NCBI GenBank assembly: GCA_022564935.1
Contig: JADFKM010000012.1
Span: 1 to 37,510, forward strand
Length of the DNA: 37,510 nt
Reading direction: 5' to 3'
Source of the DNA: Candidatus Dadabacteria bacterium
GTDB taxonomy: Bacteria; Desulfobacterota_D; UBA1144; Nemesobacterales; JADFKM01
Below, piece by piece: positions 8,944 to 37,510 of the stretch (its first letter is position 1; every line of letters begins with the position of its first letter). Position numbers and translations under genes: made by a program. The notes beneath the pieces are model-generated. The model ran no database searches and had not been told where the DNA came from. It was given only the letters and a program-made list of their open reading frames with translations.

Positions 8944-9831
8944 TCAAGGTCTGGGATGGTGACGTCTGTGGATCTCTTTCAACCTTTCCTTATCTATATG
9001 GGTATAGATTTGCGTGGTGGATATGTCGGAGTGTCCGAGCATAAGCTGTATCGTCCTCAGGTCGGCGCCCCTCTCGAGGAGATGGGTGGCAAAGGAGTGC
9101 CGAAGGGTATGGGGGGTTACGGCTTTGCCTATTCCGGCCTTTAGGGCGTAGTTCTTTATCAGCTTCCAGAACCCCTGCCGTGTCATCTTCTTCCTGCGCC
9201 CCGTTACGAACAGGTAATCGCAGTGCCCGCCCTTAAGCAACGACTGCCTGGAGCCCGCCAAATAATCACCGATGCTGGACTGCGCCTTCCCACCAAGCGG
9301 GACGATGCGCTCCTTGGAGCCTTTGCCCTCCACAATCACAAACCCCATCTCTAAATTAACGCTGTTGAGCTTGAGCCCAACCAGCTCCGATACCCTTATT
9401 CCGGTGGCATAGAGTACCTCGAACATTGCCCTGTCTCTAGTGCCTTCACGGACGGTCGGCTCAGGAGCCTCGAGGAGCTTCTCGATCTCTTCAACGGATA
9501 AAACCCGGGGCAACGCCTGCTTTGATTTCGGGTTTTTGATAAGAAAGGTCGGGTCTTTTTCCACCACCTTTTCGATTATCAAGAATTTGAAGAACTGTTT
9601 TACAGAAGAAAGGCTCCGTGAAATTGTAGACGGTTTCAGTCCGTCCGCGCTCAAACGATATAGGAATTCGAGAACGTGTGAATATTGTACCTGCTCAATG
9701 TTTTCAATGCCCTGTTTTCGGACGAAGTTCAAGAACTTGGAAATGTCTCTCTCATACGACTCCGAAGTGTTTTTTGAACGTCCCTTAATTACCGAAAGGT
9801 GGGTGATAAACGAATCGAGATGGAGCTTCAT
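8944..9831 (-). CDS. xerD: Tyrosine recombinase XerD/XerC
   Basis: A 295-residue tyrosine recombinase with an N-terminal SAM-like core-binding domain (about 3-90). The complete catalytic set is visible: Arg146 (GIRVSEL), Lys170 (GKGSKER), His241 and Arg244 (HTLRHSFATH), His267 (GHSDISTTQ) and the nucleophile Tyr276 (IYTHI). XerC/XerD resolve chromosome dimers at dif. A dif-like site and an element apparently inserted at it lie later in this window, so this enzyme, with an XerC partner encoded elsewhere, is the probable recombinase for that element. The length and ERLKEIHRRHHPRP ending fit XerD slightly better than XerC. Confidence 0.93.
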   Translation of the reverse strand: MKLHLDSFITHLSVIKGRSKNTSESYERDISKFLNFVRKQGIENIEQVQYSHVLEFLYRLSADGLKPSTISRSLSSVKQFFKFLIIEKVVEKDPTFLIKNPKSKQALPRVLSVEEIEKLLEAPEPTVREGTRDRAMFEVLYATGIRVSELVGLKLNSVNLEMGFVIVEGKGSKERIVPLGGKAQSSIGDYLAGSRQSLLKGGHCDYLFVTGRRKKMTRQGFWKLIKNYALKAGIGKAVTPHTLRHSFATHLLERGADLRTIQLMLGHSDISTTQIYTHIDKERLKEIHRRHHPRP

Positions 9832-32858: not shown

Positions 32859-33158
32859 TTAATTAGAGGATTTATTCATAGCTGCATTGGTATCCTTTAC
32901 TATATCACTATGGGTCTTTTGAGGATCTGGTTTTTCATCTTTTTTCTTCTTGTTTTTATCCATTGGTGTGCTGGGTTTCTTTGCATAATCCGATTTATAC
33001 CAGCCGTTACCCTTAAGATGAAATGATGAAAGCGATATTAGAAGCTTTAAGGTATCTTCATTGCACATATCGCAAGTTTTTAGAGGTTCTTCATTGAAAC
33101 CCTGAAGAGCTTCTACAAAGTTGCCACAATTTTGACATTCATACTCATAAATAGGCAA
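32859..33158 (-). CDS. FmdB-family zinc ribbon protein
   Basis: About 99 residues from the TTG at 33156-33158, which yields the canonical opening MPIYEYECQNCG. The ribbon is CQNC followed by CDMC 21 residues later. A GWYKSDY segment and a Lys/Asp-rich tail (DKNKKKKDEKPDPQ) follow. FmdB-type proteins were first named as putative regulators of amidase and formamidase genes; their biochemical role is unknown. GGAG lies ten bases upstream, and a good promoter lies 45 bases further. A frame open to 33215 gives a longer, unlikely N-terminus. Confidence 0.85.
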   Translation of the reverse strand: MPIYEYECQNCGNFVEALQGFNEEPLKTCDMCNEDTLKLLISLSSFHLKGNGWYKSDYAKKPSTPMDKNKKKKDEKPDPQKTHSDIVKDTNAAMNKSSN

Positions 33159-33203
33159 TGCTCTTTCACTCCATATCACGTATGAGATAAAATAATTTGT
33201 TTT

Positions 33204-33231
33204 AATATAATACATATCTTTCGATATTCAA
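33204..33231 (-). promoter_or_regulatory. Promoter of the FmdB-type gene
   Basis: On the minus strand TTGAAT (33226-33231) and TATATT (33204-33209) are 16 bases apart in AT-rich DNA. Confidence 0.5.
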
Positions 33232-33478: not shown

Positions 33479-33485
33479 AATGATT

Positions 33486-33513
33486 ATTAACTCTAATAGA
33501 ACTTATGTAAACT
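33486..33513 (+). other. dif-like XerC/XerD site 1
   Basis: Arm ATTAACTCTAA, centre TAGAAC, arm TTATGTAAACT, in 11-6-11 layout. The last arm is identical to that of the main dif-like site at 33576. The XerC-side arm is a poor match, so function is uncertain. Confidence 0.5.
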
Positions 33514-33529
33514 AAAATTAAAAATGATT

Positions 33530-33557
33530 ATTAACTCTAACGTATCTTATGTAAACT
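33530..33557 (+). other. dif-like XerC/XerD site 2
   Basis: Arm ATTAACTCTAA, centre CGTATC, arm TTATGTAAACT. The centre differs from that of the main site (TGTATC) by one base. It is oriented opposite to the main site 18 bases to its right, so the two make a 16-bp inverted repeat (33542-33557 with 33576-33591). Confidence 0.55.
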
Positions 33558-33575
33558 AAAATTAAAAGCGTTACT

Positions 33576-33603
33576 AGTTTACATAAGATACATTATCGGA
33601 CGT
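33576..33603 (-). other. dif: dif-like site / attL of the inserted element
   Basis: Read on the minus strand: XerC-side arm ACGTCCGATAA, centre TGTATC, XerD-side arm TTATGTAAACT. The XerD arm is identical to that of B. subtilis dif as I recall it, and 9 of 11 to the E. coli arm; the centre is 5 of 6 to E. coli TGTATA. The XerC arm matches the B. subtilis arm at 8 of 11. The XerC arm and centre are repeated at 36160-36176 on the far side of a GC-rich insert, so this copy would be the left junction. Confidence 0.75.
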
Positions 33604-33974
33604 TGCCAGAACAACAGAGGCTTCGCTTCATGAATGGAGAAAGTAATCCCAATATACACCCCCTGCAGGAGCTGTCAAATTATTCCTGCCCTCACTGCTC
33701 CGAAACACTTACAATCGTCTGGAGCTTCAAGAAAAAAGACATTTCAGTTCAAAAGTTCAAGTGTGACGCATGTTTACTCTTCTGGTTTTACGAGAGCCTT
33801 AATACTCCGTTCTGGCACGCGTCTATGCTCTCCCGCCCGTTTCGCGAGGAACATCTTGTTGTGAAATGCTCGTGCGGTGAGCAACAACACTTCGTCCGAT
33901 CTACCTTGGCAATCGACCGAATATCGGCTCGGAAATGTTACATTTGCGAGAGCTGCAAAACGCTACATTCATAA
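33603..33974 (+). CDS. Zinc-ribbon protein, element gene 1
   Basis: A 123-residue frame with four cysteine knuckles: SCPHC and KCDAC make one zinc ribbon (about residues 28-58), and KCSCGEQ with CYICESC a second (about 87-118). There is no enzymatic motif. The TTG start at 33603 lies inside the repeat shared by both element ends; an ATG at 33630 (MNGESNPNIHP) is the alternative. It is the first gene inside the left end. An AGGGTTTTAAAAGCCCT near-palindrome follows the stop and may end transcription. The family is unrecognised. Confidence 0.55.
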   Translation: MPEQQRLRFMNGESNPNIHPLQELSNYSCPHCSETLTIVWSFKKKDISVQKFKCDACLLFWFYESLNTPFWHASMLSRPFREEHLVVKCSCGEQQHFVRSTLAIDRISARKCYICESCKTLHS

Positions 33975-34054
33975 TAAAGGGTTTTAAAAGCCCTCTTAAT
34001 ATAGCCGTAGTATATAAAGCGCTGTACGGGTCAGGGGGGTTTCAAGGGGGGAAA

Positions 34055-34091
34055 GGGTGTTCAAAAACACCCCATTAACAGCATATCCACA
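34055..34091 (+). other. Hairpin plus DnaA-box-like sequence
   Basis: GGGTGTT-CAAA-AACACCC (34055-34072) is a perfect 7-bp stem. Eleven bases on lies ATATCCACA (34083-34091), an 8 of 9 match to the DnaA box TTATCCACA. Together with the preceding G-runs this could be a replication origin of the excised circle. The evidence is motif-level only. Confidence 0.3.
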
Positions 34092-34130
34092 GCTTTTCCC
34101 CAGTTCTATCAACAACCCACACCGCAGCTC

Positions 34131-34627
34131 CTAAAACAAAACAAAGGCGCCACCGTCCGGCACTTTCCTAAATGACGCCTCGTGAGAGGCATACTTCGAG
34201 CCATAATCGTTCCCCAGTGGTTTGCCGGCGGTGCCCAAAATGTACTCCGGCTCCGGCTGCCGGCGCCCTGAGCGCTCGCTCCCCACCGCTCGCTTGTCGC
34301 CGGCCTTTTTATCGGCTCTGCCTCCTCCGCCTGCGCGCTGACGCCCCCACATCTCGTTATCTCTCTCCGATTGTGTGGGGGCTGCTTGCCCGCCGCCGCC
34401 TCGGCGGGGGGCTTCGCTCCTTGACGTCGCTGGCCCCTTGCCGCACTCGGCTCCAGCCCCCACCCTCCCGTCCCATGTTTCTGGTGTACTCATAAATCTC
34501 TTCAATCGGCGGGGTACGAAACGACATCTGAAATCCGCTTCGCTCAGCGTCTGCGCTTCCCCCAACCCCTCAGCTGCCCGTTTCGCATCCCCGCACGATC
34601 GACACTTCCCTCGAGGCGTGATTTTTT
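34131..34627. other. GC-rich stretch without a convincing gene
   Basis: Frames of 107 and 184 codons exist on the two strands, but both are low-complexity (Arg, Pro, Gly, Ala) with no domain pattern. The DNA holds several short palindromes, for example GCCTC-GTGA-GAGGC (34177-34190), a 5-bp stem with a GNRA-type loop. A structured RNA is possible; I cannot assign a class. Confidence 0.4.
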
Positions 34628-34734
34628 GACTCGGGGCGAGGGGCTTTTCAACCAAAGAATATTCGTTTTTCGATTCGGGGCGCAAGGGCTAAACGTCCGT
34701 AAAATATTCGTTTTCGATTCGGGGCGCAAGGGCT
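34628..34734 (+). repeat. Three short direct repeats
   Basis: GATTCGGGGCGCAAGGGCT occurs at 34672-34690 and 34716-34734, each preceded by ATATTCGTTTT. A diverged third copy, GACTCGGGGCGAGGGGCT, is at 34628-34645. The spacing is about 44 bases, like the period of the AT-rich repeat outside the element. Confidence 0.8.
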
Positions 34735-34744
34735 TCACGTCAAG

Positions 34745-34762
34745 CAGGTCGTTGTCGACCTG
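34745..34762 (+). repeat. Perfect hairpin CAGGTCG-TTGT-CGACCTG
   Basis: A 7-bp perfect stem with a 4-base loop lies just after the three direct repeats and about 50 bases before the end of element gene 2. It is followed by a G-rich run, then TTTTTTATT at 34783-34791. It could terminate transcription coming from the left. Confidence 0.45.
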
Positions 34763-34813
34763 GGGTTTGGGGCAGGCACGCTTTTTTATTCCGAAATTAC
34801 GTTATTAAGCGCC

Positions 34814-35287
34814 CTACCCTTCCAGCTCTTCAACGTCATCTTCCTCAAAATACTCATACAAATGTCGATGGAGCGGACCAAACCCGCTGCGGGTCCTACA
34901 TCGAGGACACTGTTTCGGGTCCGAGGTCCGAGCCACCCAGACCACAGAACACCGTTTGCAACTAAACCGAAGCAAAGCCACCACATGAAACCTCCGCCGG
35001 CACATGCGCGGGGTACTTTTAATTCTCGTGCTGAAATTCCACAGAACAGACCGACACGCGGGACAGGCCCTGGGTGTATGCGTACGTGCAACCCAAACGT
35101 GCTTACACCTCTGGCAGATAATATCTGGCGTCGCAATCGGTCGCCGCATTTGTGCATATACTACATATTTTTGGAGCTGGTGATAAGCTCGCGGATCCGG
35201 AGCGGGTTTGATTTGGGTGATCTCCGCTAGTTCGTAAATTTGAGATCTAAAAGTGGGGGGGGGTTGTGCCGGCATCCGGGGGGCCAT
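34814..35287 (-). CDS. Tandem zinc-ribbon protein, element gene 2
   Basis: A 157-residue frame with an internal duplication. Residues about 58-80 read CQRCKHVWVARTHTPRACPAC, and a second copy near 113-134 reads CKRCSVVWVARTSDPKQCPRC. Each unit is a treble-clef or ribbon-like CxxC...CPxC module with an invariant WVART between the pairs. The preserved duplication argues for real coding. The C-terminus is acidic (EYFEEDDVEELEG). The start is unclear: ATG at 35285-35287 or the fifth codon, also ATG. Function is unknown; DNA or RNA binding is plausible. Confidence 0.65.
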   Translation of the reverse strand: MAPRMPAQPPPTFRSQIYELAEITQIKPAPDPRAYHQLQKYVVYAQMRRPIATPDIICQRCKHVWVARTHTPRACPACRSVLWNFSTRIKSTPRMCRRRFHVVALLRFSCKRCSVVWVARTSDPKQCPRCRTRSGFGPLHRHLYEYFEEDDVEELEG

Positions 35288-35339
35288 GGACCTTCGCCAC
35301 CTCTCAGGACCTCAGCCCCCGGACAAAATGCCGAAAAAA

Positions 35340-35598
35340 GAGGGCTGCCGGTTGACTGCCTCATTCCCGAAGACGTTTATTTTTCCGACAGCCCTCACTC
35401 AAGACGCTTAAAAAGACATGGTGCTGACTGCGTGTTTAGGGGCTTGTCCAGAGCGACAGTGTTTTAAGAGCACGCAGTCAGCCCGGATCACCCATCGTGC
35501 AGGCTGCCGTCCAAATGTATGGGATGCCTCCCTACTGAGTCAGAGCGTGATCGATCTTCTCCAAACCCTTGCTTCTTCCGACAGCCTGTTGCACGATG
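35340..35598. repeat. Cluster of three long imperfect hairpins
   Basis: Hairpin 1 pairs GAGGGCTG (35340-35347) with CAGCCCTC (35389-35396), extended by CGG/CCG. Hairpin 2 pairs GCTGACTGCGTG (35423-35434) with CACGCAGTCAGC (35471-35482), 12 bp perfect. Hairpin 3 pairs CATCGTGCA then GGCTG (35493-35506) with CAGCC then TGCACGATG (35582-35598), with a 3-base bulge. The arms of hairpins 1 and 3 share GGCTGCCG and TTCCGACAGCC, so they look like diverged copies. No supportable gene overlaps them. Confidence 0.7.
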
Positions 35599-35707
35599 AT
35601 TTAAATAAGCATATCCGCTTCAAGGGGAATCGTCACAACCTCTGAAAACCCGTCCCTCCGCCGGTCGCTCCGTGACGCTTACCCCTCCCCCGTCAGTTGA
35701 TTGTGCA

Positions 35708-36070
35708 TCATCCCCTTGAGCTCACCGCCACGCCATAACCGACCTCGACAACATTCTTGGTAAACTCCCCACAAATAAAGCATCCCCAAATCTCAACGGT
35801 ATCGACTCGACAAAGATCACCGGCGATCGGCGTGCGTGTTTTTTCCTCGTGGCAAAAGTACAGCGAACCCGATCGACAGGTATCACAATCAGGCGGGTCA
35901 TGTTTAGCATCAGAGCACAAGTGGTGTCCTCTCCGACCGCCCAGGCTTCGTTTTCTCGACCTGCCCAGGGGGGTAACACGTATATACCCCATGCTCAAGG
36001 CGCACATCCAGAACGCAATTATCGTGCCATTTGCAGTGTCTTCGCACTTGCAAGAAGCGTGCCAAGACAC
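35708..36070 (-). CDS. Cysteine-rich zinc-ribbon-like protein, element gene 3
   Basis: A 120-residue frame whose C-terminal half is cysteine-rich: HHLCSDAKHDPPDCDTC, then YFCHEEKTRTPIAGDLC and WGCFICGEF. This is dense enough for two zinc sites. The start is uncertain: GTG at 36068-36070 lies inside a hairpin arm, and internal ATGs exist about 20 codons in. An overlapping minus-strand frame (35910-36092) also holds a CKWHDNC motif, so a frameshift is possible. Unrecognised family. Confidence 0.42.
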   Translation of the reverse strand: MSWHASCKCEDTANGTIIAFWMCALSMGYIRVTPLGRSRKRSLGGRRGHHLCSDAKHDPPDCDTCRSGSLYFCHEEKTRTPIAGDLCRVDTVEIWGCFICGEFTKNVVEVGYGVAVSSRG

Positions 36071-36076
36071 TGCAAA
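36030..36076. repeat. 13-bp perfect inverted repeat with nested palindrome near the right end
   Basis: TTTGCAGTGTCTT (36030-36042) pairs with AAGACACTGCAAA (36064-36076). The 21-base loop holds the 8-bp palindrome CTTGCAAG (36047-36054) and a CGC/GCG pair. CGTGCCA occurs three times around it (36023, 36058, 36080). Confidence 0.8.
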
Positions 36077-36148
36077 AAACGTGCCACCGCAATGCGAAGA
36101 GCTTTAGAAAATTTCCTTGCTTTTGGGGTAGTTACAAGATACTGTTCG

Positions 36149-36176
36149 GGTAGACCCAAGATACATTATCGGACGT
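36149..36176 (-). other. Right junction (attR) of the element, half dif-like site
   Basis: On the minus strand: ACGTCCGATAA, centre TGTATC, then TTGGGTCTACC. The first 17 bases are identical to the left site. The XerD-side arm keeps only 6 of 11 positions. This is what is left when an element with a poor XerD arm integrates into dif. Confidence 0.68.
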
Positions 36177-36225
36177 TGTAAAGAATATTCTACCTAAACG
36201 CGATTATGGTATATTAAATCCCGAC

Positions 36226-36942
36226 GTGAAACTCAAGAGCAAAACGGCCCTCATAACAGGCGGAAGCAAAGGAATCGGCAGGTCGGTTGCAGAGGCCTAT
36301 GTTAAAGATGGCGCCTCTGTAATAATTTGCGCCCGCAGCGAGAGCGCTCTTAATTCCGCAAAGGATGAAATCTCCCGCTTTGGAGAGGTCGATTCAATTC
36401 AATGCGATATAGTTAACAAACAAGACGTAAAGAATCTCACAAACTTTGTTTCACAAAAATGGGGCAAACTGGATATTCTGGTGAACAACGCCAGCATCCT
36501 GGGCGTCAGATCGACAATCATTGACTACCCTGAAGACGTATGGGCAGACGTAATAAACGTGAACCTAAACGGACAATTTTATCTTACAAAAGCACTACTT
36601 CCTTTGTTGCTGAAATCTGAGCAACCCTCGATTATCAACGTCAACTCCGCCGTAGGCTACGTCGGAAAAGCCACATGGGGCGCCTATTCGGCCTCAAAGT
36701 TCGGAATGGAGGCGCTCAATCAAATCCTCGCAGACGAGCTTCAAACTCACAACTTCAGGGTCAACTCGGTCAATCCCGGAGCCACAAGAACAAAGATGCG
36801 CGCCGAGGCATACCCCGATGAAGACCCCCAGACCCTGCCGACACCGGATGACATCTCACCGGTGTTCCTCTATCTTGCTTCAGATGAGTCCCAAGGCGTG
36901 ACAGGCAAGGTTTTCGAGGCGAGAGATTGGATAAGGAAATAG
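36226..36942 (+). CDS. Classical SDR-family oxidoreductase
   Basis: A 238-residue NAD(P)-dependent short-chain dehydrogenase with an intact active site. The cofactor loop is TGGSKGIGRSVAE, the NNAS motif follows, and the catalytic residues are Ser141, Tyr154 and Lys158 (YSASK). The substrate is unknown; the shortened C-terminus (GKVFEARDWIRK instead of a VDGG ending) sets it apart from FabG. GTG start; a TATATT -10-like box at 36210-36215 is so close that the transcript may be nearly leaderless. It is the first host gene to the right of the element. Confidence 0.9.
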   Translation: MKLKSKTALITGGSKGIGRSVAEAYVKDGASVIICARSESALNSAKDEISRFGEVDSIQCDIVNKQDVKNLTNFVSQKWGKLDILVNNASILGVRSTIIDYPEDVWADVINVNLNGQFYLTKALLPLLLKSEQPSIINVNSAVGYVGKATWGAYSASKFGMEALNQILADELQTHNFRVNSVNPGATRTKMRAEAYPDEDPQTLPTPDDISPVFLYLASDESQGVTGKVFEARDWIRK

Positions 36943-37016: not shown

Positions 37017-37180
37017 TCATTCGACCAGCACCACCCGTCGATTTTTAGCCCTTCCCTCTTCCGTCCTGTTCGAAGCTACGGGTGCTAGATACCCCACTCC
37101 CCAGTGCTCAATGCGCTTGCGCTGAATGCCATAGTCATTAATCAAAGCATTAGCAACGGCTTGCGCGCGACGCTTCGACG
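37017..37180 (-). pseudogene. C-terminal fragment of an OmpA-family peptidoglycan-binding domain
   Basis: The minus-strand frame ending at the TGA 37017-37019 reads SKRRAQAVANALINDYGIQ, RIEHWGVGYLAPVASN and NRTEEGRAKNRRVVLVE. This is the C-terminal half of the OmpA/MotB domain, with the peptidoglycan-binding Arg in NRR and the usual NxTxEGRAKNRR signature. Upstream of SKRRA the family sequence stops and a different gene (argH, another frame) begins. The fragment is about 55 codons. It was probably a complete lipoprotein or porin gene before the junction. Confidence 0.8.
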
Positions 37181-37510
37181 CGGATCCGTCAGTGTCAGCG
37201 CCGCCGGCCCGAAGGATTCAGAAAATCGTTTCAGATCCGCCAGGTGCAGCGCACCCAGCCGCACACTGGACCGCTCCGCAAACGCCACAACCTTGCCGAC
37301 GATCTCATGCGCCTGGCGGAATGCGACCCCCCGCTCCACCAGGTGCTCGGCGAGATCGGCCGCACACAGCGCATCCGACTCAAGAAGCCCCGCCAGCTTC
37401 TCCCGGCGAACGTGCAGACCATCGATCAGCCGCTTCAGCACGGTGAGCGCCTCCTGCGAAGCGTCCACGGTCTCAAACACCACGCGCTTGTCCCACTGCA
37501 GATCTCGATT
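37155..37510 (-). CDS. argH: Argininosuccinate lyase, C-terminal part, cut by the window edge and by an apparent junction
   Basis: The minus-strand frame from the window edge reads NRDLQWDKRVVFETVDAS, then ADLAEHLVERGVAFRQAHEIVGKVV and LTDPRRSVARK. This is the C-terminal region of ArgH, which splits argininosuccinate into arginine and fumarate. The usual tail after SVARK (a GGT/GST-containing segment) is missing; the frame runs into PLLML and stops at 37142 inside the OmpA fragment. G+C is well above that of the neighbouring housekeeping genes, suggesting another genome. Confidence 0.85.

Follow-up and report, generated by a model that had tools for sequence, protein, structure and literature searches.

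Two dif-like sites that lie in direct orientation, one of them complete and the other with a degenerate XerD arm, raise the question of whether the DNA between them entered the chromosome through the recombinases of the host and, if so, what kind of element it represents. The window analysed here is the whole of contig C85 (37,510 bp), which belongs to a 2.0-Mb metagenome-assembled genome of 104 contigs (G000). A sequence-only reading had proposed a small element inserted at dif by the host XerCD recombinase and had suggested a new class. Our analysis makes it very likely that the segment of 2,573 bp is an integrated mobile element exploiting Xer (IMEX) of the TLCphi/GGI attachment type, probably a non-autonomous satellite.

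The dif site and its partial copy

The features that frame the segment, together with the xerD gene of the host, are the following.

8944 to 9831, - strand: host xerD, inside the window (TIGR02225, 381.6 bits, cut-off 329.6)
32859 to 33215, - strand: FmdB-type zinc-ribbon gene (Pfam PF09723), conserved neighbour on the XerD side of dif, at the same position in relatives
33486 to 33513, + strand: inverted dif-like copy outside the element, with perfect XerD arm and degenerate XerC arm, in unit 1 of a 44-bp tandem
33530 to 33557, + strand: inverted dif-like copy outside the element, with perfect XerD arm, degenerate XerC arm and centre CGTATC, in unit 2 of the tandem, 18 bp from dif
33576 to 33603, - strand: intact site assigned as chromosomal dif (XerD arm 33576-33586, centre 33587-33592, XerC arm 33593-33603), with conserved neighbours FmdB and SDR2
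33604 to 36148, no strand: body of the putative inserted element, absent in five relatives, forming a circle of 2,573 bp if excised
36149 to 36176, - strand: second att copy (degenerate XerD arm 36149-36159, centre 36160-36165, host XerC arm 36166-36176), at the position of dif in relatives
36226 to 36942, + strand: short-chain dehydrogenase gene SDR2 (Pfam PF00106), conserved neighbour on the XerC side, adjoining dif in five relatives

An exact 21-bp direct repeat, AAGATACATTATCGGACGTTG, is present at 33585-33605 and 36158-36178 with a spacing of 2,573 bp. The number expected by chance in the window is about 2e-4 for exact 21-bp direct repeats of any sequence and about 2e-8 for a copy of this particular 21-mer. 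Read on the - strand, the 28-mers are ACGTCCGATAATGTATCTTATGTAAACT (33576-33603) and ACGTCCGATAATGTATCTTGGGTCTACC (36149-36176), the intact one with the structure ACGTCCGATAA-TGTATC-TTATGTAAACT and the degenerate one with ACGTCCGATAA-TGTATC-TTGGGTCTACC. As first described, these sites are directly oriented and share all 17 bases of XerC arm plus centre inside the 21-bp repeat; their XerD arms match at 6 of 11 positions, and the complete dif stands on one side. An integron cassette was considered and rejected, since the two sites have the entire XerC arm and the centre in common and not a GTT core.

The pattern ATAAN6TTATGTAAACT matches once in G000 and once per genome in 19 others of the order; 44 control genomes gave one match in total. 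The dif sites of the order align to ACGTCCGATAATGTATMTTATGTAAACT, and an exact 23-mer of the site is also present in nine unrelated genomes. A 19-mer of XerC arm plus centre is single in most species of the order and forms a direct pair only in G000. Across the phylum, AYGTCYGATAANRTATMTT (XerC arm plus centre, at most one mismatch) was found in 29 of 58 genomes, always as a single copy at dif apart from two genomes of the same family that have secondary sites at a distance, and a close pair in direct orientation is confined to G000. Because the pattern is single per genome, the nearby direct pair is restricted to G000 and the 23-mer recurs in unrelated genomes, we assign 33576-33603 as the chromosomal dif of this genome. 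The earlier concern that the true dif might lie elsewhere did not materialise, the single pattern match in G000 being this site. Both recombinases appear to be supplied by the host: xerD lies in the window, and a second protein, on C95, scores best as XerC (324 bits, just below the model cut-off of 335), which makes the latter an XerC-like call.

Further dif-like sites were detected at other loci of the order. In most genomes of one family, a second near-perfect site (MKFGAHVSIAGGIDKAP) is located shortly upstream of the endonuclease IV gene (L053, L054, L056, L118-L125), a conserved locus away from the FmdB-dif-SDR2 neighbourhood; these are perhaps secondary XerD sites. A third conserved dif-like site occurs near a Fur-type gene in three genomes (L117, L127, L128), and in G030 the Fur-linked site is on the dif contig, 173 kb off and in opposite orientation.

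Empty sites and the origin of the segment

In G003, G004, G005, G008, and G009, the XerC side of dif faces SDR2, whose start is at a distance of 35, 63, 49, 102, and 102 bp, respectively. On the XerD side, the FmdB-type gene is followed by the first SDR in all five genomes, in the order of the window, and beyond these by ComEA and PBP1A genes in G003, G004, and G005. In the window, 49 bp separate SDR2 from the degenerate copy, and a further 2,573 bp lie before the intact dif; between dif and SDR2 of the five relatives, the 2.57-kb segment is absent. Considering this spacing in the relatives, we infer that insertion of the segment parted SDR2 from the XerC side of dif, which it had formerly adjoined, and the duplicated XerC arm plus centre sit at the new boundary of the inserted segment. 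The empty site that the sequence-only reading had suggested looking for thus exists in five relatives, and the counter-case that it had named, the same 2.6 kb without dif repeats in relatives, was not found. Its remark that the element differs in composition from both flanks also held, though the difference is modest, with a GC content of 0.535 in the element and 0.479 in window positions 1-33577 (0.32 in the adjacent intergenic strip and 0.49 in SDR2).

DNA might also have been added beside dif by illegitimate recombination or replication slippage that duplicated 21 bp of the site. Some relatives indeed hold ordinary genes between dif and SDR2 with the repeat absent, indicating that the interval accepts DNA by other means; in G034 (10 kb), G040 (6 kb), and others, it contains ordinary chromosomal genes (sbcCD, a TerC-like gene, transporters). 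However, in G000 the duplication falls on the XerC arm and the centre, which are also exactly where the insert ends, the repeats are oriented as expected from Xer recombination, and a second XerC arm is missing from those relatives that have unrelated genes in the interval, which leaves this route hardly probable at all. The inserts of G034, G040, and the other relatives were themselves considered as further IMEX and rejected, as they consist of ordinary genes and a second att is absent.

Joining of a separate molecule into the contig through the shared 21-bp sequence during assembly would likewise produce two sites, and the metagenome assembly is fragmented into 104 contigs, with the last 300 bases of this one looking chimeric. 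Final assembly graphs are normally built on words of more than 21 bases, which exceed the repeat, and a molecule carrying an exact TLC-type attP for the dif of this host would itself be an IMEX. We thus regard such an artefact as very improbable. At window positions 37142-37510, an OmpA-like C-terminus switches abruptly to the C-terminus of argininosuccinate lyase in an overlapping frame, with a GC content of 0.645; the contig end is possibly chimeric.

Insertion at dif with the TLC/GGI type of attachment is, in our view, well supported by the identity of the dif site, the empty sites, and the divergence of the XerD arm, and, judging from the anatomy of the sites, the insertion was almost certainly carried out by host XerC and XerD. 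The conserved FmdB-dif-SDR2 neighbourhood provides a ready place to seek similar elements in this group.

Gene content of the element

Within the element, the following features were recognised.

33630 to 33974, + strand: ORF1, predicted zinc-ribbon protein (phrog_10675, E=1.1e-5)
34000 to 34800, no strand: GC-rich stretch (GC 0.579) with low-complexity palindromes, in which no gene was recognised and no family match was obtained
34814 to 35287, - strand: ORF2, 157 aa, two similar predicted zinc ribbons of the CxxC-x-W-x-R type
35708 to 36070, - strand: ORF3, probable cysteine-rich protein of up to 120 aa with uncertain start, two CxxC motifs and further cysteines
36030 to 36076, no strand: strong hairpin with 18-bp arms (94% complementary) and an 11-nt loop

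ORF1 comprises 114 aa from the ATG at 33630, which is preceded by AGAGG, or 123 aa with a TTG start at 33603. ORF1 and ORF2 contain four CxxC motifs each, a number reached by no ORF in 500 dinucleotide shuffles, so that both clearly appear to code for zinc ribbons, beyond chance. For ORF2, Pfam DUF5817 matched with E=1e-4, below the curated cut-off, and a viral tblastn match (E=3e-5) spanned one ribbon. Single-sequence AlphaFold models gave a pLDDT of 38 for ORF1 and 37 for ORF2. Coding by ORF3 is probable but less certain than that by ORF1 and ORF2, and profile comparison returned no family match for it. An open frame across the attP junction into ORF1 was discarded as a probable antisense artefact, since most of it lies opposite ORF3. 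The zinc-ribbon proteins could act as a regulator, serve as an Xer-activating factor, or be cargo.

The hairpin at 36030-36076 is perhaps a terminator; Rfam gave just sub-threshold chance matches on it. Fold z-scores of -2 to -5 were obtained around 34175-34474, and no gene was recognisable at 35300-35700. Another weak dif-like stretch, CCGAACAGTATCTTGTAACTA, adjoins the degenerate att copy on the element side (36127-36149, - strand); it may be an accessory Xer site or have arisen by chance.

No integrase, recombinase, replication, or virion family was detected in 40 stop-to-stop frames of the element (frames of at least 40 aa), in agreement with the original description of a segment that lacks a recognisable phage or replication gene. 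Nucleotide relatives were absent from phage and plasmid collections, and protein relatives of ORF1 from phages, plasmids, IMG/VR, and the 58 genomes of the phylum. With ORF2, the protein search matched two viral contigs and HNH endonuclease genes, through generic zinc-ribbon similarity only, and the order and plasmids yielded no relative; the search with ORF3 returned none. The element is known from a single copy.

Several of these observations would suit a larger phage or island integrated at dif that is now a dead remnant, its replication and structural genes deleted internally while the att ends were kept: the stretches in which no gene was recognised are large and could represent decay (34000-34800, 35300-35700), no replication gene was recognised, the element is single-copy, and larger viral contigs with the same XerC arm plus centre and a divergent XerD arm exist. 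Yet no fragments of phage genes were detected across the six frames of the element, ORF1 and ORF2 are intact with plausible ribosome-binding sites, and the 21-bp repeats are identical. We therefore consider a remnant a tentative and rather unlikely explanation, although the lack of recognised replication genes is equally compatible with a satellite and a decayed element.

Regarding viral contigs with such sites, IMG/VR contigs of 24-66 kb (L112, L116, also L113 and L115) contain the same XerC arm plus centre next to a divergent XerD arm, for example TTGTGGTAAAA, with terminase, portal, and head genes among nearby ORFs. These contigs are candidate tailed phages with a TLC-type attP.

Attachment class and proposed mechanism

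In TLCphi attP and difGGI, XerC site and centre resemble dif and the XerD site diverges, and double-stranded insertion by both recombinases leaves a complete dif on one side (PMC4246890, PMC5357621). By analogy, the IMEX proposed here would have existed as a circular double-stranded form with one attP, ACGTCCGATAATGTATC-TTGGGTCTACC, which host XerC and XerD would recombine with the chromosomal dif. Insertion would leave the hybrid with the degenerate XerD arm on the SDR2 side and re-create a complete dif on the FmdB side, so that chromosome dimer resolution would be kept. As in the rest of this attachment class, integration would be XerD-first and reversible. The restored dif of the sequence-only reading is supported; 33576-33603 would be an attR-like junction, with the XerC arm from the element and the XerD arm from the host. 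The absence of an integrase and of a recognised replication or virion gene suggests that the element is probably non-autonomous, persisting for the most part in the integrated state and depending on another element for any mobilisation. Its mobility is read from the anatomy of a single copy without relatives.

TLCphi, a satellite phage of Vibrio cholerae and of the TLC class of IMEX, likewise has a single 28-bp attP with a divergent XerD arm, inserts at dif, restores a full dif, and has no integrase of its own. However, TLCphi belongs to a host of a different phylum and possesses an autonomous replication module, whereas no replication family was found in frames of at least 40 aa of our element, and it encodes the XerD activator XafT (PMC9765430), whereas the proteins recognised here are zinc ribbons. 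Insertion of GGI also results in one intact dif and one copy with divergent XerD arm (difGGI), but GGI is a 57-kb island with a type IV secretion system and our element measures 2.57 kb. Legionella LME-1 inserts similarly through a partial dif of 22 bp, after which one side carries an intact dif and the other a modified copy that reduces excision (PMC9765430); in contrast to our element, it is a larger, phage-like element and uses a single-recombinase XerL system.

The sequence-only reading had likened the attP to those of both CTX and TLC phages. The likeness to the TLC type, with its divergent XerD arm, stands, whereas that to the CTX type falls, as elements of the latter type contain a pair of inverted attP copies folding into a hairpin, and here inverted dif-like copies occur only outside the element, in the left flank. 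In size, the element recalls RS1, the very small satellite of CTXphi that uses dif through XerCD, but the folded single-stranded attP of the CTX type and the rst genes of RS1 were not seen in it. The pdif (Xer) modules of Acinetobacter plasmids are also small gene units bounded by Xer sites and devoid of a recombinase; their sites are inversely oriented and on plasmids, whereas those of the element are direct and at the chromosomal dif.

The suggestion of a new class found no support: only one copy has been seen, the lack of replication genes suits a satellite and a decayed element alike, and the attachment class is known (PMC4246890, PMC5357621). Mechanism and attachment class are familiar, what is unfamiliar is the gene content, and the size is unusually small. 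It is improbable that the element represents a distinct minimal, still mobile class of dif-integrating DNA, in which a zinc ribbon would replace an FtsK- or XafT-type activator of XerD and replication would depend on the host only. The favoured reading, a TLC-type satellite, extends dif parasitism of this type to a bacterial lineage with few known genomes, in an element seemingly stripped to an attachment site and a few zinc-ribbon genes. If active, it would set a very low limit on the needs of an Xer-exploiting element, and its two or three ORFs would be the few candidates among which to seek a new Xer-activating factor.

Outside the element, additional dif-like arrangements were observed. 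Of the two inverted copies in the 44-bp tandem (33479-33566), which flanks dif on its XerD side, one forms a 21-bp inverted repeat with dif; both copies are absent from all relatives in the order and could either be sites for XerD only or have been left by earlier events. A Muiribacteriota metagenome-assembled genome, unrelated to ours, shows a resembling array on the XerD side of its dif (L013, ~1430-1780, - strand), composed of inverted TTATCTTATGTAATC-like half-sites with repeats of ~50 and 102 bp. A microvirus-like contig of 5.6 kb (L114) carries two dif-like att sites 5.1 kb apart and belongs to a known kind of dif-integrated microvirus.
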